Source: a virus. Taken from it: 50,910 nt of DNA. Below, piece after piece: positions 8,145 through 37,093 of this stretch. The notes under the pieces were generated by a model. It worked only from the letters and a program-made list of their open reading frames with translations, had not been told where the DNA came from and searched no databases. Position 1 is the first letter of the stretch, and every line of letters starts with the position of its first letter. Location of the stretch: positions 1 through 50,910 of the IMG/VR virus record IMGVR_UViG_3300020147_000012; one strand, written 5' to 3'. The translations under genes and the position numbers were made by a program.

Positions 8145-8311
8145 ACAGAAGCGAAAAAGGAATCGGGGATAGATTACAGTCTCTAGGCCATACAACCTAC
8201 CAAGAAACAAGAATCTGTGGCGCAGGACACATGATTACGGTAAAACATTACGCAAAAGCACCACCAGCCCCCACTAGGGGGTTTTCTTATACCCATTGGC
8301 CTAAAACGTAA
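8135..8311 (+). CDS. Possible small protein (58 aa), end overlaps a terminator
   Basis: ATG 8135 overlaps the preceding stop by the usual few bases. The first 45 residues look like protein (SEKGIGDRLQSLGH, ICGAGHMITVKH). The last residues are read through the terminator hairpin, which is unusual and lowers confidence. Confidence 0.3.
   Translation: MYLNRSEKGIGDRLQSLGHTTYQETRICGAGHMITVKHYAKAPPAPTRGFSYTHWPKT
8264..8290 (+). terminator. Rho-independent terminator
   Basis: CCCCC-ACTA-GGGGG followed by TTTTCTT. Confidence 0.8.
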
Positions 8312-8860
8312 TACAGGAATAATAAAAATGGTGCAAAATTTTGGATGGGCATATGATTAGAATGGGCGCAGCGTTGGCCCGTGTCCCACCCCCTCGCAGG
8401 AATAAGGCTTTTTTAGGATTGTCTGTATGTCTCACAACAGGTATTGTACGACACTAAACTAATATATGGCTATAAATAAGGGGTTTTTAGTGTTTGGGTG
8501 TGTCGCAAAAGCAAACAAATAATGGTATATATCCCTTTTTGTACGACTGTGTGCGGTGCGATGCAGCTACCTTAGCCCCATCCACACACTAAGTAGGCGG
8601 TTCCATTCACACCATGTGGTAAATAACCCTTACTTTTTATAGTGCATACCATCGCTAATATGAGGCTCTATATAAGGCTAGATAACCTCACGCACAAACG
8701 GCCCTATATGTACTTGCTATCCATTGGGCATTATTTGACATACTGGCTTATTCTGTACTGTAATGTTGTACTACGCTTGACTTCCTTTGCCCTTATAGCT
8801 TATAGTAGCAAGTATTAAGGGAATAGGTCGTTTTATAAACAATTAATTGATACCAACTAT
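8312..8860. other. Intergenic region with tandem early promoters
   Basis: I see no supported gene in this AT-rich stretch. The word TTGTACGAC occurs at about 8436 and 8539. Near the right end are two promoter-like sites, TTGACA/TGTAAT (8735-8764) and TTGACT/TATAGT (8777-8806), both with 18-bp spacers, upstream of the small-ORF operon. Confidence 0.5.
8735..8806 (+). promoter_or_regulatory. Tandem promoters of the small-ORF operon
   Basis: TTGACA (8735-8740), 18 bp, TGTAAT; and TTGACT (8777-8782), 18 bp, TATAGT (8801-8806). They lack the TGTGG extension, so they may form an early class with strong -35 elements. Confidence 0.55.
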
Positions 8861-8971
8861 ATGCCAACTATCGCACACCGCATATACTACGTATTCATTG
8901 GGCTGATCCTCGGATTGCTTGCCTCACATGAATTGGTAGTTATGCCGATGCTTGAAGCCCTTACTAAGTAA
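8861..8971 (+). CDS. Small membrane protein (36 aa)
   Basis: ATG 8861 to TAA 8971. It has one predicted transmembrane helix (about residues 8-23, YYVFIGLILGLLAS) with a basic N-terminus. First of a run of tiny ORFs ending at 9510. Function unknown. Confidence 0.5.
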   Translation: MPTIAHRIYYVFIGLILGLLASHELVVMPMLEALTK

Positions 8972-8978
8972 TAAGAAT

Positions 8979-9158
8979 ATGTTAATGAAGTTCTACGTTA
9001 AGCAGGTCTACGGTAAGCCTAGAAACTACCTGGTAGACCCGAAGCAAGCCGAAGCCTTTACCAAACTAACAGGCAGAGCGACCCTTTCAGCCGATGACTT
9101 CCGCATCCTAGAGGTATTTGGAGTCAAATTTGAACAGGTCAACGAGCCTATTAAATAA
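8979..9158 (+). CDS. Small hypothetical protein (59 aa)
   Basis: I start it at ATG 8979 rather than the upstream TTG because the latter overlaps the membrane ORF. A compact mixed alpha/beta sequence with KFYVKQVYGKPR near the start and DFRILEVFGVKF near the end. No family recognised. Confidence 0.6.
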   Translation: MLMKFYVKQVYGKPRNYLVDPKQAEAFTKLTGRATLSADDFRILEVFGVKFEQVNEPIK

Positions 9159-9160
9159 TA

Positions 9161-9301
9161 ATGATCTTAAAGCAATATTATTCTATTGATGGTGGTGTCA
9201 ATAATCTATGTATCTATACGGTATGTAATGAGCGATACCAAACCATTAGCACACACAAGACCGAGAAAGCAGCAATGAGAGCATTAAAGCTAATTAAATA
9301 G
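9161..9301 (+). CDS. Small hypothetical protein (46 aa)
   Basis: ATG 9161 lies two bases after the previous stop; the frame ends in TAG 9301. The sequence has a beta-like first half and a helical, basic end (AAMRALKLIK). Function unknown. Confidence 0.5.
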   Translation: MILKQYYSIDGGVNNLCIYTVCNERYQTISTHKTEKAAMRALKLIK

Positions 9302-9304
9302 CAT

Positions 9305-9397
9305 ATGAGGTACTTAATCCTACTAATAAGCCTTATAGCCATCACACAGTTAAGTAATCCATTGATGGGAGCTAGATTTGTTTTGTTAGATAAATAA
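9305..9397 (+). CDS. Small hydrophobic ORF (30 aa)
   Basis: ATG 9305, three bases after the previous stop. The N-terminal half is hydrophobic (LILLISLIAI), so it may be a single-pass membrane peptide. Confidence 0.4.
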   Translation: MRYLILLISLIAITQLSNPLMGARFVLLDK

Positions 9398-9399
9398 AC

Positions 9400-9510
9400 A
9401 TGACTAATAAGCCAATATCCAAAGAGGCACAAGACATATTGAGGCCAGAATGGGAGAAAATGCAGGACTTCATAAAAGAAACAGATCAAGAGATATGCGG
9501 GACTGAGTAG
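9400..9510 (+). CDS. Small acidic ORF (36 aa)
   Basis: ATG 9400, two bases after the previous stop. Acidic, helical and hydrophilic. Last of the tight run of tiny ORFs. Confidence 0.45.
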   Translation: MTNKPISKEAQDILRPEWEKMQDFIKETDQEICGTE

Positions 9511-9536
9511 AGTATTGTTTATCCTTAGTGTGGCTT

Positions 9537-9606
9537 GGTTCGACCGTTGCGTAAAGCAATGGTAGCAGGGCGAAGCCATGCGATAGGGCAAGCAATTAGG
9601 CGAACC
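9537..9606 (+). other. Folded intergenic segment
   Basis: The 185-bp gap 9511-9695 has no gene. GGTTCG/CGAACC closes a region with inner stems TTGC/GCAA and ATGG/CCAT. It could be a small RNA or leader for the HTH gene; weak. Confidence 0.3.
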
Positions 9607-9695
9607 CTCCGCTAACAGCTTGCGATCGTAACTTATGCTAGTTATGGTAGCGAAGCGAGTTAGTTGGTGGTCATTGAAAACTAAATATAACGATT

Positions 9696-9941
9696 ATGAC
9701 CAAACACAAGACCATCCAGCGTAAAAGCTGGACTAAAAAGGATATTGCAGCCGTACTTGATCTATGGGAAACCAAAACAAAGGCTGAAATAGCCGAGCAG
9801 TTGGACGTTAAAATGTGGCAATTAACCTATTTGATTAAGGAAATAGAGAAAGCTGGCTATAAGATCCCTAAAAAGAAACAGCATCACCAGACGCAAATTC
9901 TCATAAAGGAAGTATTAAAAGCCCGCAAGCTAATCAAATAG
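9696..9941 (+). CDS. Helix-turn-helix (Myb/SANT-like) protein
   Basis: An 81-residue basic protein. SWTKKDIAAVLDLWETKTKAEIAEQLDVK (about residues 11-39) is a typical recognition arrangement of a Myb-like or sigma-region-4-like HTH, followed by basic helices. It probably binds DNA and may control early genes. First of the next short operon; no Shine-Dalgarno sequence. Confidence 0.75.
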   Translation: MTKHKTIQRKSWTKKDIAAVLDLWETKTKAEIAEQLDVKMWQLTYLIKEIEKAGYKIPKKKQHHQTQILIKEVLKARKLIK

Positions 9942-9945
9942 AGCC

Positions 9946-10380
9946 ATGACCAAAGAAGACTATTCTATCCTTGTTAGCTGCATTGAGTTAGCTAAACGAG
10001 ATGACGGAACTGAGTTCTACCGCGTCAAAGATGGCACACCGGACCATGTTGCTAAAATAGTGTCTGATGTCGTCTTTAAAGCGGACGAAGATATACATAG
10101 CTGGGATTTGTCTTATGAGATTGCTAACGATGCGCTTAATGCCTTGTACGATGTCGAACTGGATAATTTATCTGAGTTTGATATCTATGAGCAAGACAGT
10201 GAGCACGCTAGCATCTGGACAGCTGCCCGCCTTGAATATCTGACCATGTGGAACCAGGACGAAATAGCGGACAAAGTTAGAGATTATGACTGTGATATCG
10301 CTACGGCAGCAGCTATGTGGTATGAAGAGCAGGTTAATTACATGGTCGAAGCCTTTAAGAGCGCAATTCTTGAAGCCTAA
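9946..10380 (+). CDS. Acidic hypothetical protein (144 aa)
   Basis: A strongly acidic, mostly helical protein (D- and E-rich throughout) starting four bases after the HTH gene. The acid-rich surface could mimic DNA or bind a basic partner, but no motif is visible. Family not recognised. Confidence 0.8.
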   Translation: MTKEDYSILVSCIELAKRDDGTEFYRVKDGTPDHVAKIVSDVVFKADEDIHSWDLSYEIANDALNALYDVELDNLSEFDIYEQDSEHASIWTAARLEYLTMWNQDEIADKVRDYDCDIATAAAMWYEEQVNYMVEAFKSAILEA

Positions 10381-26613: not shown

Positions 26614-27699
26614 CTATTTATTGAACAATTGGTTCAATTTGGCGATGGTCTTAGGACCGACCTGAAGACCAGCAAGCGATTGAATCTCTGCTACTGATGC
26701 AACCTTGTGCTTGAGTTGGAATTTCACAACAGCCTCCCGTGTGACGTTGCCGTAGTAGCCAGTAACGACATAGGTGTAGCAACCATCAGCCTTCAGGGCC
26801 AGCTGCAAGGCTTCAACGTCCTTGCTCCGCTCGCCGTGCTTGATAGTCTTAGTGAACTTGTAGCTAAATTGCTTTGGAAGCTTCTTGGCTTCCTGTATGA
26901 TCTTGTTTGGAACATCAACGAACGTCAGGCCTTCGCTGATATTATTCTTCCATTCAGACCACCAGAACCAGTTGGTCCCGTCATCAGCCCAGTCCTTCGA
27001 CCAGGAGTTTAATATGTAAAACTTAGTGTCATCGCCCACGTCTTCATAGCCATAGAGATATAACTGGTGGCCAGAGACAACTGAGCCAGGCTTGCGGAGC
27101 GGGACGATCTTCTTCTTGTCCCAAGTGCTATTGCCCTTGGCATCCGTCCACCATTCGCTACCAATACGCATCAGGATAGATGCGCCATTGGATTCAACGA
27201 TGGCTTGCTTAAGGCCGTCTTTAGAGATGGTGATAAAAGCGTATCCCTTGATCTTGTTTTCAGCCGCTTCAGCGAAGGCTGCCTGGGGAATATTGTCTAT
27301 ATTGCGGGAATAAACGTACTCCTCATGAGAAAGAGTGGTGTCATTGGGAACCGTTTTCGTGGTTGCAATGCCATAGTCTTGGACAATCTTGGCGGCAAGG
27401 CGAGGGTAGGTGCCTTCACCCGCATAGCCATCCTTAGCCTTGGCGATAGCGTAAACGAAACGAGGGGATTCAGGGATGATGAAACCCGTATCAACGAAAT
27501 CCAAGTATTGTTTGTATTTGGTGTGGCCGTGTCCTACACATGCTCCAAGTTTGCGCTGGTGCTCAACAGGCAGGTCATCAATAGGCACAAAGTATTCATC
27601 TGGGTAAGATTTGAACTCACCGACAACCGCAGCAAGCGGGATGTCTCGATAGTCCGTTGGAGATGGAAAAGCCCCGAAGGCGGGGATGAAGTCTGTCAT
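26614..27699 (-). CDS. Papain-like (C1) peptidase with peptidoglycan-binding domain, probable endolysin
   Basis: A 361-residue protein. The C1 catalytic triad is visible: C54 in KLGACVGHG, H211 in SGHQLYLYG and N231 in LNSWS. A C-terminal PG_binding_1 domain (about residues 284-360) contains RSKDVEALQ, TGYYGNVT and VGPKTIAKLN. There is no signal peptide. It follows a holin-like gene by one base. The pairing suggests a cysteine-peptidase endolysin that cuts peptide cross-links or a surface protein. The binding-domain style resembles proteins of Patescibacteria. Confidence 0.82.
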   Translation of the reverse strand: MTDFIPAFGAFPSPTDYRDIPLAAVVGEFKSYPDEYFVPIDDLPVEHQRKLGACVGHGHTKYKQYLDFVDTGFIIPESPRFVYAIAKAKDGYAGEGTYPRLAAKIVQDYGIATTKTVPNDTTLSHEEYVYSRNIDNIPQAAFAEAAENKIKGYAFITISKDGLKQAIVESNGASILMRIGSEWWTDAKGNSTWDKKKIVPLRKPGSVVSGHQLYLYGYEDVGDDTKFYILNSWSKDWADDGTNWFWWSEWKNNISEGLTFVDVPNKIIQEAKKLPKQFSYKFTKTIKHGERSKDVEALQLALKADGCYTYVVTGYYGNVTREAVVKFQLKHKVASVAEIQSLAGLQVGPKTIAKLNQLFNK

Positions 27700-28024: not shown

Positions 28025-29614
28025 ATGAACAAGAAAGTATTCCGATTCTCAGAAGTTAAAGACAAAGTAGTAAAAGCAGTAGACACTCTAGCTGACCCGA
28101 TACGTCAAACGATGTCCCCGAAAGGCGGCAACGTCATATACGAGGATGATCGTGGCGATCAGTTTGTAACAAACGACGGCGTAACGATAGCAAAGAACAT
28201 ACGGCTGAAAGATCCGGTTGAAAACGCTGTCGTCGAGATCATTAAGCACTCAGCCCTTCGGACCAATACCGAAGCCGGTGATGGAACCAGCACAACAATC
28301 CTCCTATCCAGCATCTTGATTAAGGAAGGTATCCGATTGATCGAGAATGAGGGCTGGAACAGGATGGACCTAAAACGAGAATACGAGATCTTCGCTGACC
28401 AGATGATAGAAAATCTGAAAGGACAGATCAGGAAGATAGAGTCAGACGACGACCTATTCTTTGTTTCCAAGATCTCTGCCAACAACGACGATGAGATTGC
28501 TAAAGACATCGTTCGCGTAGTCAAAGTCGCGGGCCAGGATGGCCATGTCATCATTGAGCCTAGCTTCGGCAAGGAGACAGAGATCATCGAAGATACCGGC
28601 TTCATCATTGAAGCTGGCATGTTGACTCCCGAGCTGCGGAACAATCCGCAAGCTATGATGGCATCGTACAACGATGTTCCGGTTCTTATCACCGACAAAC
28701 GCCTCTACTACGCCCAGGAAGCCGAAACGATCCTGAAGACCTGCCTCATGAATGGGTACAAGCAGGTCGTGATCGTGGCCCAGGACTTCATTGGGGAGGC
28801 ACTACCGTTCTTCGTAGCCAACCACCAGCAGGGACAGATCCAGGTATTGCTGGTTAAGGACGTACAGGCAAAGGAAGGGACAGACACGTTAGAAGACCTG
28901 GCTACCTACTTGGGTGGCAAGGTCATAGCCGAAAAGAACGGCAGCATCGTAGACAAGCTTACTATCGAAGACTTTGTTATTGCCAACCGCGTGTTTTCCG
29001 ACACCGGCAAGACAGTCATCATCCGTAAGACCGAAGACACAAAAGCGATTGAAGATCGGGTTGAAACGTTGCGTAAGGAGATGGACAAGATCGGCAACCA
29101 AGAAGACCCGAAGCACATGAAGCTCAAGAAGCGGGTATCATCACTGACCAACGGCATGGTGACGATCAAGGTTGCCGGCAATAACCCTCTCGAAATACGG
29201 GAGAAGATCTTCAGGTACGAGGACGCAGTTAATGCCGCCCGTGCAGCCATGCGTGACGGCTACCTTGTGGGAGGTGGCCTCAGCGTATTCTGGTCATTCA
29301 TGCAGACCGGAGTTCACCCAGAACTCCACAAGACCTTCAAGCGGGTGGCAGAAGCGAACATCCGTCAGATAGCGGAGAACTGCGGCCTGTACGGCGATAA
29401 CGTCATTGAGAACATCCTGACGTTTGACCCTGACATGAACACCTACGGCTTCAACGCCATGAGCGGACAATTCGAAGACCTGCTGCAAGCCGGTATCATC
29501 GACCCGTTCAAGGTTACGGAAATGGCGATCCGAAACTCAGTGTCTATCGCCAACGTGTTCATCAGTAGCGATTATATAGTTATCAACGATATAGAAGAAA
29601 AAGATGGAAAGTAA
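28025..29614 (+). CDS. groEL: Phage GroEL-type chaperonin large subunit
   Basis: A 529-residue group I chaperonin of nearly normal length. Nucleotide-site motifs are present: SPKGGN (31-36), NDGVTIA (50-56), GDGTST (85-90, GDGTT in cellular proteins), an EDAVNAARAAMRDG segment holding the catalytic Asp equivalent, and VGGG near 415-418. The C-terminus lacks the usual GGM repeats. It forms a folding cage, probably for phage capsid or fibre proteins. Start at ATG 28025; no Shine-Dalgarno sequence. It is followed by a small ORF and groES. Confidence 0.95.
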   Translation: MNKKVFRFSEVKDKVVKAVDTLADPIRQTMSPKGGNVIYEDDRGDQFVTNDGVTIAKNIRLKDPVENAVVEIIKHSALRTNTEAGDGTSTTILLSSILIKEGIRLIENEGWNRMDLKREYEIFADQMIENLKGQIRKIESDDDLFFVSKISANNDDEIAKDIVRVVKVAGQDGHVIIEPSFGKETEIIEDTGFIIEAGMLTPELRNNPQAMMASYNDVPVLITDKRLYYAQEAETILKTCLMNGYKQVVIVAQDFIGEALPFFVANHQQGQIQVLLVKDVQAKEGTDTLEDLATYLGGKVIAEKNGSIVDKLTIEDFVIANRVFSDTGKTVIIRKTEDTKAIEDRVETLRKEMDKIGNQEDPKHMKLKKRVSSLTNGMVTIKVAGNNPLEIREKIFRYEDAVNAARAAMRDGYLVGGGLSVFWSFMQTGVHPELHKTFKRVAEANIRQIAENCGLYGDNVIENILTFDPDMNTYGFNAMSGQFEDLLQAGIIDPFKVTEMAIRNSVSIANVFISSDYIVINDIEEKDGK

Positions 29615-29825
29615 CCCAACGACAGATCAGGCGGCAATCGCTGCTGAATTGAACGAGCGCAAGGAAAAGGCGGCAGTCAAGATCGAAGAGGTATTGAACG
29701 AGTTCGAACTAGGACTCCAGGCAGTATTGATCTACGGCCGCACCCAGATCAACTCAAACGTAATCCTGGTGGACGCAAGGAAGCCAGCTGAAGACAAGAA
29801 AGAAGATGGAGAAACAGCAGCCTAA
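29604..29825 (+). CDS. Small protein between GroEL and GroES (73 aa)
   Basis: It overlaps groEL by 11 bases and groES by 20. The N-terminal half is a charged helix and the middle is beta-like (LQAVLIYGRTQINSNVILVDAR), with a D/E/K-rich tail. Tight overlap on both sides suggests it belongs to the chaperonin machine, perhaps as a substrate adaptor. Family not recognised. Confidence 0.75.
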   Translation: MESNPTTDQAAIAAELNERKEKAAVKIEEVLNEFELGLQAVLIYGRTQINSNVILVDARKPAEDKKEDGETAA

Positions 29826-30117
29826 ATTGGCAGACTATACCTTTCTCCGCGACCATGCTTTGGTCAAACCGTTGGCTATGGAGTCAACGATGGGATTGGT
29901 AAAGCCGGACCAGTACGATGACAAGCCTGAAGAGGGAATCGTCATCGCGGTTGGCGAAGGGAGAATTTCAGAAAACGGCACACTGATCCCGACCAAGCTG
30001 CAAGCAGGAGATAGGATTCTGTTCAGTAAATACAGTTCAGAGCAGATACGACGTGATGGTGAAGACTATCTCCTGGTTAGAGAGGAAGACATTAAAGCAA
30101 TAGCACCACGCCAATAA
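29806..30117 (+). CDS. groES: GroES-type co-chaperonin
   Basis: A 103-residue protein with the GroES beta-barrel pattern: LRDHALVKPL, a mobile loop (about residues 26-41, MGLVKPDQYDDKPEEG), GIVIAVGEGRISENG and AGDRILFSKYSSEQI, ending VREEDIKAI. It caps the GroEL ring. The mobile loop differs from the cellular GGIVLTGS type, so it is likely matched to the phage GroEL. Confidence 0.93.
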   Translation: MEKQQPKLADYTFLRDHALVKPLAMESTMGLVKPDQYDDKPEEGIVIAVGEGRISENGTLIPTKLQAGDRILFSKYSSEQIRRDGEDYLLVREEDIKAIAPRQ

Positions 30118-30407: not shown

Positions 30408-33400
30408 TTAGAAACCTTTGAAATCCTTCTGTTTGTCGTCTTTGGGAATGAAGGCTCGCTTATAGGTGGCAACCACGTTTGCTTTGTCGAGGAGCTTTTC
30501 CAGCTTGTCGCGGGTTTCCTTTTCGCGCTTAGCCGCTTCCTGTTCAACATCGAAAGCGTAAGGGCGAACGCCGATCAGCTGTTGCATGATCTTGTTCTGT
30601 TCAGACACGTCTACGGTCTGCATCTGTTTGACCGAAGAGAGGATGCGGGCGTATGGGAAGTTAAGTATGAGGTTCATTCGCTCAGGGCGCAGCGAGACAT
30701 ACCAGGTAAAATCAGAGCCGTCTGATCGTTTGCCTTTGATCTCAGTGAAGCCGATCAAGTCTTTAATGACAGGAGGAGCTGATTTAAATGCTGCCGCATT
30801 GGTAACGTCCGACAACATCTTGCCTTGGAAGAACGAGTAGCCAGACATCTGTTCGACAGGAGTTCTGACCAGCGGGGAGATCGAACCCAGGAAGACATTA
30901 GGCTGGAAAGCGACAAAGGGTTGTTCAAGCGGCGTGCCAAGACCTGTCAGGATCTCAACGGTGCTGCCTTTCTTCTTGGACAAGATGCCTACGCCTTGCG
31001 TCACCCAGTCAGGGAGAGCGGCTTTTTCTTCTTCGGTCAGTTCACCGCCCGAAAGAACGTCACCCAATGTTTGAATAGTCTTAGCCTGAGCCGCAACACG
31101 GCCAGGGGTAGTTACGAGAGACCGAGCCTGAAGCTCCAGGTTCTTGCGGGTGAATGTATAGAAAGGAATCATTCGGCGCAAGAAAGTACGCTCGAAGTTT
31201 GTGAGGTTTTGGTAGTCGAACAAGAACATCTTAGTCCGCTGAGCGGCCAACGTTACATCGCCAGTGTTCTTAAGGTTGGCAATGAAGTCCACCAAACGAG
31301 CCTGTTCTTCAACTAACTTACCGACAGCGAAACCAGCGTCAACAGGAGCTTTAATAGCCTTCTTTGCACCCTTCTTGACCGTCATATTCTTCATGCCAGG
31401 GAAAAGATCAGAGCCGCCAATAGGAGTAACGTCCATTGCCCCAGAGAACTTGCCACCGAAAGCTACGCCATTGGTTTTAATGGCTTCACGCAATTCGCCA
31501 AAGCTCCATTCATGGCCAGTGGCATCAGTGAATAATTTCTTGGTCATCAATTCGTAAAGTTCATCCTGAGCTTTGTTGGTCACTTTTGTTTGTGATCCAT
31601 TAACAAGCCCCTCTTTAAAGAGCATACTATCAGACATTCCTAAGTTGCCGTCACGAATCAGTTCGTCATTTTTTCTACTCAAGAAATCATCCATTATTTT
31701 ACCAGCTTTATCTCGACCAAAAGCTCTCTGAATACCGGAGATAAAACTTTTAACTAGATTCTTCATGTGTCCAAAAACCGAACGTGTAGCAGAGTCCATC
31801 GCCTTAAATCGGTCAAAGGTCTTATCAGTAAGATTTTCAGCAAACCATTCATCAATATTCTTGAGTCGGTAAGTCTCATTACTATACATAGTCTTCCAAT
31901 AATCAGAGTCCAGTTCCTTCTTGAGAAATGGTTCAGCTTTGGGGAACTCCTTAATGAAAGCATCTCTTTCTACCGTGGTCATGCCACCAGCATTATCCAG
32001 TAGTTTTTCCCATTCTGGGTGGGACTTAATGTAAGTTTTTTTATCACGCTCGAAGGTCTTTTTAACCCCTGCGATTTGATCTTCTGGTAGGAAGCGTGAT
32101 AATGAGTGCCATAACTCATGGATAACAGTACGATCAAACTTGCCACCGTTTTCAGTGATGCTCTTTTTAAATATTGATACAACACTTCTACCAAATTCAT
32201 ACTGCCCTTGTTGGCCTCCGTTCTTAAATATCTGAAGACCTACATCATCAAACATATGTTCTCCTATGTCATCGACAAATCTTTGAATAGCATCAATCTG
32301 TTCACGAGGAATAGCTAATGCAGTTTTATCAACTAACTGCTTAGCCTTAGAATACGGAAGCGTATCTCCCTCTCTTGCAAGTTGCCTTTCAGCTGACATA
32401 CCAAATCCTGTATCAGCTCGAAGTTTGGCAATGAGTTCGTCTGCACCACGAGGAATATCCACACCCTGTCTTTCCGCTGCTGGCACAAACGGTTCACGTG
32501 CTCGACCCAAATCTATTCGTTGATTAAGTTGTGATTCCTTACTGTATAGGGAATCTATATCTTTCTTTGTACCAACTACAAAATCTGCCATGTCTTCAAC
32601 AGTATTGCTTGGTAATACTGTTGCTTTTTTGGATATTGAAGCAGGATTAAATGCCATTGCCTCAGCCTGAAGCTTGGCGAACTTGCGGTCCAAGTAAACC
32701 AATTGGGCAGCCTGGCTGTGAATAGCAGGATTGAGAGAGTGAACGCCCAGGTCCATCATGTGCAGGAAGACGTTCGAAATAGCATTGCGGCCGTGGAAGG
32801 CTGGGAAGATCGCCGTAACCGAAGCTTTCCACAGGTTCTGGAGGCCATCAAAAGCTTTCAAGAACTCGTTAGAAGCAGGGTCAGTGATGACCGCACCGGC
32901 GAAATCTTCGATCCTTTTAGCGACTGCTGGATGGAAGAGGATGTGTTCGCCTTCGGAGCCGAGGATCATGCCAGCATCGAAATCCGCCATATCCTTGATC
33001 TTCTTGGCATTGAGCTTGACCCAACCCTGCGGAGCGACAGTCTCGTAAGCCCCCATCTTGGAAGCCACCTCACGCATCAGAAGCTTAGCCGTGCTTGCCT
33101 TGATGTTATCCATAGACCGCGCCACATGGGCGGTAATGATGTTGTCGTCGAAGATCTCCATGCCGGAGTTCTTCATTTCCTTGAAGACGTTATCAATTAC
33201 TTTCTGGTCCTTCTCGCCAAGTACCACCTGTTCCAACTTATCCAACGAAGCATCATCAGACTTAAAGATCGTCTGGTCGATAGTACGTTGCTTTACTGCG
33301 CCGGTAGCGTCAGATAGGGGACGGGTGAAAGGGATAGCCTGGATCTTGCTCGGCACGAGCATGTGCGGCACGTGATTGTCACGAAAGGCGACAGGGATGC

Positions 33401-34631
33401 CTGACTTCTTCAGGAACTCGAACTCCTTCTCACTGAAACCTTGGAGCTGCTTATAGGCCCTGGCCAGGCGTTCGTCAGTCGGCAGCTTGCCCGCTTCCAC
33501 GGCAGCCGTCAGGAACTTGGCCTCGTTTGTATTTAAATTGTTTGCTTTGACGATGGCCGGAAGCTTGAGAAGCCGATCATCTTTTAGGGACTCAGCCAGA
33601 TCACGAGCCTTAGTTTCCAGGCCTACGTATTCTTCAGGCAGCCTTACCCAGCCGGAGTCGGTCTTTACCATTGCTGGATCAAAGAGAGCTGTTACGCTGG
33701 AGCGGATGGGAGCAGTCAGATTGTCGATAAAGGTAAAGCCTGGGATCATCTCCATAGCAGCATTGATGCGCTGGCCTGAGAGGACGGACTTGCCGAAGAA
33801 CTTGATGCCACCCTTATCAATAATAGTTTCTGCCATATGAGGAGCCTTTTCCAATAGGTTAGTTAAGGCCTTCTTGGCAAAGTCAGGATCAAGGGGAGCG
33901 TCAATCGTTTTCTTGAGCACATCATCTAGGGCCTCATCAGCAAGATCGTAAATCTCGCCAGGACCACGCATGGCCTTGGCGTTCTTGAAGTTCTTCAATC
34001 GTTCCGTCAATTCCAGACCCTTGGCCAACCCGTTCTTCTGAGCTTCAACGGCCTTGAGATATTTGTAGACCTGTTGGCCCTCGTCGCTGACAGCGGCAGC
34101 TGCGGACGCTTTCTTGCCAAGCTGAGCAGCAGCCTTCTCTCCAAGCGTAACCTTAGTCGTAGCCCGCAGACCGGCAATACCTGAACCGGCACCAAAGGTA
34201 ACGTAGGTGAGGGGATCAAGCACGATGTCTGTAGCGGTACGAACCAAAAAACCGCCGACCTTTTGCATACGGGTAGCGTTGGGATCGGCTTGGCCGAAGA
34301 TCACGTCAGAGGTTGAGATGTTCTGGTCGATAGCTTCTCCTACCGTGTAATCGTCAGAAAGGACACCGGCTACGATCTGGTTAGGAACCGAGATAACGTC
34401 AATGAACTTCTTGAAAGAGTTCTTGAAGGTGTCGCTAACGGTAGAGAGGATGCCCGTAGTAGGGTGGGCCAGTTCTTCAGCGGCTTCGCTGACAGCACCG
34501 CCTTTTGCCCGAGCCAATTCCAACAACCCCGCCGAGGTGGTCAGATCCACATTCGTCGAGCTGCCGAATGAGCTAAATGAACCAAATCCGCTGCTGGAGT
34601 TTTGGTTTGTCCTTTGTTGCCTAAATGCCAC
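30408..34631 (-). CDS. Large virion (ejection-type) protein with inserted HExxH metallopeptidase domain
   Basis: A 1407-residue protein started at GTG 34631, last of the late operon. The outer parts (about 1-660 and 1015-1407) are alanine-rich helical, with FDYQNLTNFERTFLRRMIPF (near residue 1160), a pattern I associate with large internal or ejected proteins of podovirus-like phages. The middle (about 660-1015) looks different: the DNA is more AT-rich and the protein holds VIHELWHSL with H838, E839 and H842, a zinc metallopeptidase signature, followed by a helical segment with possible third ligands. The protease may process virion proteins or act in the host cell after ejection. Confidence in the virion role is moderate. 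Confidence 0.8.
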   Translation of the reverse strand: MAFRQQRTNQNSSSGFGSFSSFGSSTNVDLTTSAGLLELARAKGGAVSEAAEELAHPTTGILSTVSDTFKNSFKKFIDVISVPNQIVAGVLSDDYTVGEAIDQNISTSDVIFGQADPNATRMQKVGGFLVRTATDIVLDPLTYVTFGAGSGIAGLRATTKVTLGEKAAAQLGKKASAAAAVSDEGQQVYKYLKAVEAQKNGLAKGLELTERLKNFKNAKAMRGPGEIYDLADEALDDVLKKTIDAPLDPDFAKKALTNLLEKAPHMAETIIDKGGIKFFGKSVLSGQRINAAMEMIPGFTFIDNLTAPIRSSVTALFDPAMVKTDSGWVRLPEEYVGLETKARDLAESLKDDRLLKLPAIVKANNLNTNEAKFLTAAVEAGKLPTDERLARAYKQLQGFSEKEFEFLKKSGIPVAFRDNHVPHMLVPSKIQAIPFTRPLSDATGAVKQRTIDQTIFKSDDASLDKLEQVVLGEKDQKVIDNVFKEMKNSGMEIFDDNIITAHVARSMDNIKASTAKLLMREVASKMGAYETVAPQGWVKLNAKKIKDMADFDAGMILGSEGEHILFHPAVAKRIEDFAGAVITDPASNEFLKAFDGLQNLWKASVTAIFPAFHGRNAISNVFLHMMDLGVHSLNPAIHSQAAQLVYLDRKFAKLQAEAMAFNPASISKKATVLPSNTVEDMADFVVGTKKDIDSLYSKESQLNQRIDLGRAREPFVPAAERQGVDIPRGADELIAKLRADTGFGMSAERQLAREGDTLPYSKAKQLVDKTALAIPREQIDAIQRFVDDIGEHMFDDVGLQIFKNGGQQGQYEFGRSVVSIFKKSITENGGKFDRTVIHELWHSLSRFLPEDQIAGVKKTFERDKKTYIKSHPEWEKLLDNAGGMTTVERDAFIKEFPKAEPFLKKELDSDYWKTMYSNETYRLKNIDEWFAENLTDKTFDRFKAMDSATRSVFGHMKNLVKSFISGIQRAFGRDKAGKIMDDFLSRKNDELIRDGNLGMSDSMLFKEGLVNGSQTKVTNKAQDELYELMTKKLFTDATGHEWSFGELREAIKTNGVAFGGKFSGAMDVTPIGGSDLFPGMKNMTVKKGAKKAIKAPVDAGFAVGKLVEEQARLVDFIANLKNTGDVTLAAQRTKMFLFDYQNLTNFERTFLRRMIPFYTFTRKNLELQARSLVTTPGRVAAQAKTIQTLGDVLSGGELTEEEKAALPDWVTQGVGILSKKKGSTVEILTGLGTPLEQPFVAFQPNVFLGSISPLVRTPVEQMSGYSFFQGKMLSDVTNAAAFKSAPPVIKDLIGFTEIKGKRSDGSDFTWYVSLRPERMNLILNFPYARILSSVKQMQTVDVSEQNKIMQQLIGVRPYAFDVEQEAAKREKETRDKLEKLLDKANVVATYKRAFIPKDDKQKDFKGF

Positions 34632-34634
34632 GTT

Positions 34635-35819
34635 TTATTTAAAGATGCCTTTCGGCTTATTGCCGGTGAAGAATTGAGCAACGGCCTTGCCTGGTGCTTC
34701 GGCAACCTTGCCAAGTTGTTTTGCCACATTAACAGCAGGGACACCGCTCTTCTTAGGTGCTGGCTGAGAAGCCAAGATTGAAGCGTAAGCAGTTCGTGCC
34801 TTTTCTTCAGAGTAAGATTTAGGAGAGCTACCAACTTCAGACAAGAACTGGTTGATGTTCTTGCCGGACTTAACAGCATTAGCCGCCATAGAGTTTAGCT
34901 CTGACGCTTCTTCCTGATCCTGGCGCATGATCTCGCCATAGACCAAAGCCGCATCTTCAGAGCCATCCAAACCAGCCAAGAAGCCGGTATCACCGTTACG
35001 ATAAGCAGAGGCCAAAGCAGCAGCCGTAATAGAGTCAATGCGGTTAACTTTATCTCCCTGCAATGCCTTAGCAGCCTGAGCCTTGGAGTTAGCAATTTCA
35101 GCCCTGATCTTCTGTAATTGGAGCTGTCGTTCTTCTGATGCGTAAGGAGCGGCCCGAGCAACAATAGTTTCGATAGTGTCTCCTTCTTTAGTAGGCACAC
35201 CAAATTCCATAGCAATCTGAGAGATTGCCTTCCTTTCTTCGAACGATTGAGCCTTAGCCAAACGCTCCTCAGTCTTCATAGCCAATCCGAATTGGTCACG
35301 AGACAAACGCTGGTTTTCCCGTTGGACAGCCAAGCTGGAAAGGGAAAGGAGGTTTTCAAAGACACGTTGCTGTGCCTGGGTTTTGTATTCGATAGCTTTG
35401 AGCTGGAGTTCAGAGATCTTGCCAGCAGCTTCTGCTTCGCCAGCCAAGATCAGTTCTTGTTTGCGCTGAGCCAGGTCGTTGAGGTTCTTGTCCACGGTCC
35501 CGACTATTTCACGGAGGACACCCATGTTCGTAGCGAACCCAGCACGACCTTCCAAGTTGCCGGTAATAGCCCTCTGTCCTTCTTCCTGGGCATAACCGAT
35601 CTCACGGCCAAACTGAGATTCTATACGCTGAGCACTGGCTTGTTGGCCAGCTTGAACACCCTTAATAGCCTCGCCAATTTTGCTTTCGAGTTCAGTGTCT
35701 TGAGAGGAGATGACTTCCGATTGGGAAAGTAGACGACTTTGGAGAGTATCTAGGAACTTATCGGACTGTGCGCCAGTGTTCGGGTTAGTGATTGTTTTCT
35801 GTTTCGGAGTAGTAGCCAT
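34635..35819 (-). CDS. Helical virion protein, probable ejection protein (394 aa)
   Basis: Rich in A, Q and E, almost entirely helical, with long coiled-coil stretches. Its place between the adaptor gene and the 1407-residue protein matches internal/ejection proteins of podoviruses. It has its own promoter with a leader of about five bases. Confidence 0.7.
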   Translation of the reverse strand: MATTPKQKTITNPNTGAQSDKFLDTLQSRLLSQSEVISSQDTELESKIGEAIKGVQAGQQASAQRIESQFGREIGYAQEEGQRAITGNLEGRAGFATNMGVLREIVGTVDKNLNDLAQRKQELILAGEAEAAGKISELQLKAIEYKTQAQQRVFENLLSLSSLAVQRENQRLSRDQFGLAMKTEERLAKAQSFEERKAISQIAMEFGVPTKEGDTIETIVARAAPYASEERQLQLQKIRAEIANSKAQAAKALQGDKVNRIDSITAAALASAYRNGDTGFLAGLDGSEDAALVYGEIMRQDQEEASELNSMAANAVKSGKNINQFLSEVGSSPKSYSEEKARTAYASILASQPAPKKSGVPAVNVAKQLGKVAEAPGKAVAQFFTGNKPKGIFK

Positions 35820-35860: not shown

Positions 35861-37093
35861 CTAGCGGCGGTAGCGATAACGCCGGTTGAAGTTAATGCTT
35901 CGAACCTTAAAGTTCTTTTCTTCGGGGGTCTTGGAAGTAGGGAAGATCTTACGTGCTCGTTCAAGCTGTTTGTTGGCCTCGTCTTCTTGGACCAGGGCAT
36001 CGTTGTAGAGCCGAAGAGGTGATTTGAAGAGCAAACCAGCTGCCTTGTGAGCTATCGCGTACTTGTACTGATCGTACTTACCAGAGAAGAACGGGACATC
36101 AGTAGTAGCCGAGAAGGCGTAAATGTCAGTGCCGGAATTGTTCTTGCCAACCACCCAAGAGACATAGCGGAAGGTAAGCTTCTCAGGCCGGACAACGCGA
36201 AGATAGTCCAAACGGAAGTCGGTATCGTCGCCCTGGGAAACTGTGTAGTTAAAATCGAAACGATAGTAGGTGATATCGCCGGCGTCAGGAGTGCCGGTAG
36301 GAGTAGCATCAGCCCAATTGACCTTGATGGTATTGTCGCCATTGGCAAAGGCCGAACCGTTTATATCCGTCGTAACGGTAGCGGACCAATAGTTTGAGGA
36401 ATCGGTTCCCCAATAGAAGGTGATCGAGCTGAAGTTGGTAACATTAGGAATGTAGGCTTCGAATACCCAGCTAGCCAGGTCTTCGAGATCGGACAAGTCG
36501 GCCGAGTTGGCATCCTCGTTGTAGATAGTAGCCCTGTTGTTTCCTGACTGAGAAACGTCTACGTCAAAGTTCAGAGAACCGTTACCGCTCGTATATTCAG
36601 CCGTATCAATAGTGACGTTAGTAGCGTCAGAGTTGGTGGTATCAGCTTGCCATGTCCCGCCGCCGTCGGTCAAAGAATCGAACTCAGAGATGACCTGAGC
36701 CTGGTATTGAGGGTTGTAGATGATCCCTAAGTACCAGTCGTCATCCTGGTATTCGATTGCGTAGGAAGGTTCCTGGGAGCCTTCAGCGATCTCGGAAGCA
36801 ATCTCCCTGCCGTCCTTACGGGTGAAAGGGGGATAGTTCTTGCCCACGGCCCGCCTTAGTTCGGTAGGTTCCTGGATGTCAGGCACAAGAGCCGTGATCT
36901 TGTAATAGTTCACGGTATCAATAAAGTCGATCTCTTGCGTGCTTACGTTATGATCGTTACCTAGCTCTTCATTGAGCCAGACAACGGCTTCGGTCAAAGC
37001 TTGGAATCGTTCTGCTTGGGAGATGCGGTCGGTTGAGGAGTCACCAATGTTCGTATCGAGGTTGGTGATGAGGTTTGCGAGAGTGACAGCCAT
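35861..37093 (-). CDS. Head-tail adaptor-like protein with inserted jelly-roll domain
   Basis: A 410-residue protein. The first 130 residues (TEAVVWLNEELG, FIDTVNYYKITALVP, PPFTRKDGREI) and the last 100 (YKYAIAHKAAGLLFKSPLRLYNDALVQEDEANKQLERARK) read like an adaptor/tail-tubular protein. Between them (about 140-305) lies a beta-rich, D/S/T/N-rich domain resembling a carbohydrate-binding jelly roll (GNGSLNFDVDVSQ, WVFEAYIPN, YRFDFNYTVSQ). It may display a binding surface at the neck. Leader about six bases. Confidence 0.65.
   Translation of the reverse strand: MAVTLANLITNLDTNIGDSSTDRISQAERFQALTEAVVWLNEELGNDHNVSTQEIDFIDTVNYYKITALVPDIQEPTELRRAVGKNYPPFTRKDGREIASEIAEGSQEPSYAIEYQDDDWYLGIIYNPQYQAQVISEFDSLTDGGGTWQADTTNSDATNVTIDTAEYTSGNGSLNFDVDVSQSGNNRATIYNEDANSADLSDLEDLASWVFEAYIPNVTNFSSITFYWGTDSSNYWSATVTTDINGSAFANGDNTIKVNWADATPTGTPDAGDITYYRFDFNYTVSQGDDTDFRLDYLRVVRPEKLTFRYVSWVVGKNNSGTDIYAFSATTDVPFFSGKYDQYKYAIAHKAAGLLFKSPLRLYNDALVQEDEANKQLERARKIFPTSKTPEEKNFKVRSINFNRRYRYRR

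Follow-up and report, generated by a model that had tools for sequence, protein, structure and literature searches.

The window, a 50,910-nt stretch of viral DNA (IMG/VR record IMGVR_UViG_3300020147_000012), encodes terminase, head-tail connector, scaffold, capsid and tail-type proteins, and its minus-strand block of late genes ends with a large gene whose product is referred to here as the carrier (Table 1). The carrier gene is syntenic in most relatives with three neighbouring genes encoding proteins of 743, 410 and 394 amino acids, and is followed by convergent GroES and GroEL genes. In the window, the phage GroEL (Cpn60, E = 5.6e-44) and the GroES-like gene that adjoin the carrier in most relatives occupy positions 28025-30117. 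An endolysin-like gene at 26614-27699 combines a papain-like C1 peptidase match, which is below the cut-off, with a peptidoglycan-binding domain; its homologue also lies near the carrier in one relative (L050).

Table 1. Coordinates of the carrier gene, its insert and adjoining features in the window
Feature	Position	Strand	Remarks
Carrier gene	30408..34631	minus	1407 aa, GTG start; final gene of the late (head/tail) operon
'Post' anchor, residues ~1103-1239	30915..31325	minus	Conserved part of the carrier on the C-terminal side of the insert; LFDYQNLTNFERTFLRRMIPFYTFTRKN
Insert, residues ~656-1019	31575..32666	minus	Thirteen close relatives lack it; GC3 is low
Zincin-like metallopeptidase module, residues 677-1004	31620..32603	minus	Based on relatives in other phage proteins, AlphaFold2 and Foldseek
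DEWFAE motif, residues 927-932	31836..31853	minus	Both Glu conserved in 75/75; on a helix in the model
HELWH motif, residues 838-842	32106..32120	minus	Predicted zinc-binding/catalytic motif; H, E and H invariant in 75/75
'Pre' anchor, residues 590-655	32667..32864	minus	Conserved carrier segment N-terminal to the insert; FPAFHGRNAISN
394-aa neighbour gene	34635..35819	minus	Keeps its place beside the carrier in relatives (synteny); matches nothing in PHROGs and nothing convincingly in Pfam
410-aa neighbour gene	35861..37093	minus	Weakly matches a tail protein; synteny kept in relatives

The carrier has no recognisable homologue in PHROGs or Pfam, no match among annotated phage records at ordinary thresholds, and its profile has no significant match among PDB sequences, T7 gp16 and other ejection proteins of solved structure included. 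Its label as a virion or ejection protein thus rests on gene order. T7 gp16 and the N4 virion RNA polymerase are large ejected proteins (PMC8954989, PMC5512222, PMC8472413). The position of the carrier gene, the analogy with these two proteins and the presence of related domains in carriers matching PHROG 6651 together suggest that the carrier may be packaged and ejected with the DNA. Polyvalent phage proteins combine several unlike enzyme domains in a single chain; in the carrier, a zincin is the sole one recognisable.

A search of fetched IMG/VR and GTDB contigs yielded 68 distinct homologous carrier frames, including that of the window. The last scan of the collection contributed a single further relative, which is truncated. 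One carrier homologue (L095) comes from a contig of 6.4 kb that was binned to Candidatus Theseobacter exili, which may be a hint of the host or a case of mis-binning.

A foreign domain nested in the carrier

The initial annotation had proposed that a metallopeptidase domain was inserted in the carrier at about 31580-32660 (residues ~660-1015), in DNA more AT-rich than both flanks. The nested insert is borne out, with slightly wider limits (Table 1), and contains the HELWH that had been noted. GC content falls to 0.38-0.44 over positions 31550-32750, from 0.49-0.55 on each side. The codon profile shows the same contrast, with a GC3 of 0.31 in the insert (residues 656-1019) versus 0.615 and 0.566 in the carrier flanks. 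Among 239 windows of 364 codons drawn from the larger genes, with the insert left out, GC3 averaged 0.619 and never fell below 0.448. Amino acid content does not account for the low value, because recoding the residues of the insert with the codon usage of the flanks gives a GC3 of 0.604 +/- 0.025 (2,000 simulations). About 1% of the 1092-nt windows of the contig have a lower GC content than the insert, all of them starting at 8.3-9.1 kb; positions 8300-10200 form a second stretch of GC lower than that of the insert. No repeats were found at the insert borders, and the only repeats round the insertion are short two-copy matches within the insert.

Comparison with homologues shows that the domain is not common to all of them: most close relatives lack it. 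Thirteen close relatives from IMG/VR in which the region is intact have an empty site (L003-L009, L014, L022, L024, L028, L030 and L040). In these relatives the insertion point corresponds to a short variable linker between the conserved FPAFHGRN block and the 'TD..G..W..GEL' block. In 12 of them the two anchors are 90-128 residues apart, whereas the window has 447 residues between them and its sister L002 has 377. The first row of the alignment, used for searching and anchoring only, reads L instead of F at residue 590. The thirteenth, L004, also has an anchor distance of 447, with the metallopeptidase site empty; a protease in its long slot was considered and rejected, the extra length being an intein-like insert elsewhere. 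This insert starts with CVTEDT, ends with TGN before a threonine, and lies inside the conserved PFY/TF motif.

Other insertions occur in the carrier homologues. The intein-like insert of ~285 residues is found in L015, L019 and L191 as well as in L004, at the equivalent of window residue ~1166; in L004 it contains a stretch, LLGWLLTDG, that resembles a homing-endonuclease motif, and its site is the most conserved motif of the carrier. Another insert of ~280 residues, apparently coiled, is present in L004, L005 and L009 at the equivalent of window residue ~455.

The insert of the window is thus a foreign domain nested within a large late-gene protein. Its origin is most simply explained by capture from an AT-rich phage. 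The phage L096, which holds the nearest relative of the domain, has a GC content of 32% and a GC3 of ~0.15, and shows a short DNA-level similarity to the insert (79.7% over 59 nt). A zinc metallopeptidase, probably from such a phage, would have entered a large late-expressed protein at a linker that tolerates insertion.

In a FastTree phylogeny of the carrier flanks, the window pairs with L002 (support 0.943; 58% identity). At the same linker L002 has an insert of 288 residues containing HEYGH and EFLAESFAEY, which displays little composition contrast (GC3 of 0.35 versus 0.37 and 0.43). It has a weak match, under the model cut-off, to the Pfam lethal-factor-type metallopeptidase model. The two inserts have no detectable homology to each other (blastp E = 0.05; profile comparison probability 1.3%). 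The linker may have received a zincin on two separate occasions, or an ancestral zincin may have been replaced in one lineage.

The captured domain might be a neutral passenger, recently acquired and presently functionless, as its allele is observed in a single lineage and its composition has so far not adjusted to the genome. This is very unlikely: all active-site residues are intact, the frame is open across 364 codons, and the sister carrier also has a zincin at the same point. A broader proposal is that the virion delivers the carrier and that its linker at residue ~656 serves as a slot for exchangeable proteases, where related phages swap sequence-unrelated zincins like the tips of polymorphic toxins, so that each phage would inject a distinct protease against its host. 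This generalisation is rather unlikely on present evidence. Zincin-like motifs occur elsewhere in two carrier homologues, HEISH at residue 2023 in the C-terminus of L029 and HERGH at residue 473, upstream of the anchors, in L057; these are suggestive only, because one or two HExxH motifs are expected by chance in 68 proteins of this size (a rough estimate from residue frequencies).

A zincin family outside Pfam, PHROG and NCBIfam models

The insert is covered by no Pfam, PHROG or NCBIfam model. A library of defence proteins gave no match. A scan for close relatives with the whole insert as query found none, and tblastn searches of INPHARED with the insert and with the corresponding domain of L099 gave nothing significant. 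A shorter query restricted to the insert core retrieved relatives within large phage proteins of varied make-up, and a profile search of IMG/VR reported 151 places, of which 80 were kept. The family comprises at least 75 distinct IMG/VR sequences that cover the sites. All 75 agree at HExxH (in both histidines and in the glutamate), at a Tyr-Arg pair, at the two glutamates of DExxAE and at an aspartate that follows four residues on. The HExxH motif on which the initial annotation relied is therefore conserved, together with the glutamate motif, in divergent members. Only two of 44 family members match the Pfam ATLF model, and weakly.

The nearest relative, L096/L104, spans the whole module at 37-39% identity. 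The carrier flanks of family members fall into eight groups that are unlinked at a 60-bit cut, with a weak link under that cut between the carriers of L096 and L183. The biggest group contains matches to the PHROG 6651 'internal virion protein'. In a 3,400-residue protein (L181), the zincin precedes a distant homologue of the window carrier core (pre anchor, E = 7e-11; post anchor, E = 1e-21) by ~650 residues; zincin and carrier core thus co-occur here in a different order.

An AlphaFold2 model of the module, built from an alignment of 44 window and locus sequences, has a mean pLDDT of 83.7 and a pTM of 0.77; with six sequences the value was just 61.6, and the 44-sequence alignment raised it. 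The model agrees with the metallopeptidase proposal in showing a zincin core layout: an N-terminal helix (100-113), three strands (122-126, 133-136 and 141-145), a helix bearing HELWH (156-171) and a later helix bearing DEWFAE (250-272). The best Foldseek matches in the PDB are mostly the minigluzincins jannalysin, abylysin and selecase (4jix, 4jiu and 4qhf), with probabilities of 0.95-0.99 and deviations of ~3 A over ~70 residues, at E-values (0.08-0.3 for the minigluzincins, 0.08 and above overall) that are not significant; the list of matches also includes a few helical proteins of no relation, scattered between them. In BFVD the top match is a 1,247-residue protein of an uncultured phage (E = 1.8e-7), followed by weaker matches to large polyvalent proteins, an internal core protein and a virion RNA polymerase. 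The assignment to the zincin fold is made from motif, topology and consistency of the hits taken together. Judged from its conserved residues and the predicted structure, the insert is very likely a catalytic zinc metallopeptidase, and one of the two DEWFAE glutamates is expected to supply the third ligand of the zinc. It defines a zincin family that lies outside Pfam, PHROGs and NCBIfam and sits within phage proteins of several carrier groups.

Possible roles and likeness to known systems

The insert is most likely an active, self-contained zinc metallopeptidase, with HExxH and a downstream glutamate, of the kind known from phage polyvalent and internal virion proteins. A packaged carrier would travel to or into the cell alongside the phage DNA, and the zincin would then cut a host or defence protein as an accessory activity, not as a needed step in carrier maturation. 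An accessory role is favoured over compulsory processing of the carrier because close relatives keep the surrounding protein without the domain, and an accessory target is favoured by the dispensability of the domain and by the different zincin that occupies this slot in L002. Overall, the reading as an accessory protease with a host or defence protein as its target has about an even chance of being correct; ejection of the carrier is suggested by the evidence given above, and the kind of target is suggested more weakly.

The metallopeptidases of polyvalent proteins, in which zincin-like domains are the commonest (Iyer et al. 2017, PMC5512222), have been proposed to act in self-processing, either prepackaging or post-entry, or in attack on host proteins (PMC5512222). 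Self-processing, by analogy with phage P1 DdrB, is the main role proposed for them (PMC5512222), and the window zincin could likewise cleave the carrier that contains it, whether ahead of packaging, inside the capsid or once in the cell, freeing parts of the polypeptide. The module lies mid-protein between two conserved segments that a cut would part, and L181 unites a related zincin with a homologous carrier. However, the 13 close relatives retain the flanks with no protease at the site, and zincin processing is thus not a general need of the carrier; the N4 virion RNA polymerase, moreover, has a metallopeptidase domain yet is packaged uncut (PMC5512222). Published precedent speaks just as much for autoproteolysis. 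Autoprocessing, perhaps peculiar to this phage, is considered possible but doubtful.

It is improbable that the module works in assembly or in crossing the cell wall, with other virion proteins, or envelope proteins that the ejected DNA passes, as its substrates. Ejection proteins do bear swappable wall-acting domains, such as the T7 gp16 transglycosylase (PMC8954989), and the carrier gene lies within the late operon; but relatives have the same late genes without the zincin, which argues against a required role in assembly, and the insert has no peptidoglycan-binding or wall-hydrolase signature. The accessory activity against a host or defence protein is preferred to both of these alternatives. 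The locus offers a before-and-after case, with near relatives that have and lack a protease at one site. If the carrier is packaged, the long-open question of whether such metallopeptidases process their own protein or act as injected effectors becomes testable.

The window domain fits the structural description of the 'MPTase' domains of polyvalent proteins. Both have a three-stranded sheet, an N-terminal helix, an HExxH helix and a second helix with a conserved glutamate, and both are embedded in large phage proteins whose genes lie close to late or virion genes. Of the 12 clades of Iyer et al., the one they single out has an aspartate three residues past HExxH, whereas the window domain has a serine there. 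The 'DarB-like antirestriction' protein of Erwinia phage PEp14 (YP_005098431.1) shares the zincin family of the window (E = 7e-10), and its gene lies between virion-structural and lysis genes; unlike the window protein it is ~4,900 residues long (an open frame of 4,917 codons), with a different carrier and the site HEILH, and is distant. L097, L099 and L101, assigned to the PHROG 6651 carriers, likewise hold the zincin module of the window within a large protein, and the C-terminal part matches PHROG 6651 in L097 and L099, the two tested; these carriers have no detectable homology to that of the window. T7 gp16, with its exchangeable enzyme domains, and the N4 virion RNA polymerase, with its nested zincin, are likened to the carrier by analogy only, as neither has a detectable sequence relation to it. 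The kind of system is already known; what is valuable here is the clean comparison with empty sites and the occupation of this slot in the sister carrier by another zincin, unlike that of the window.
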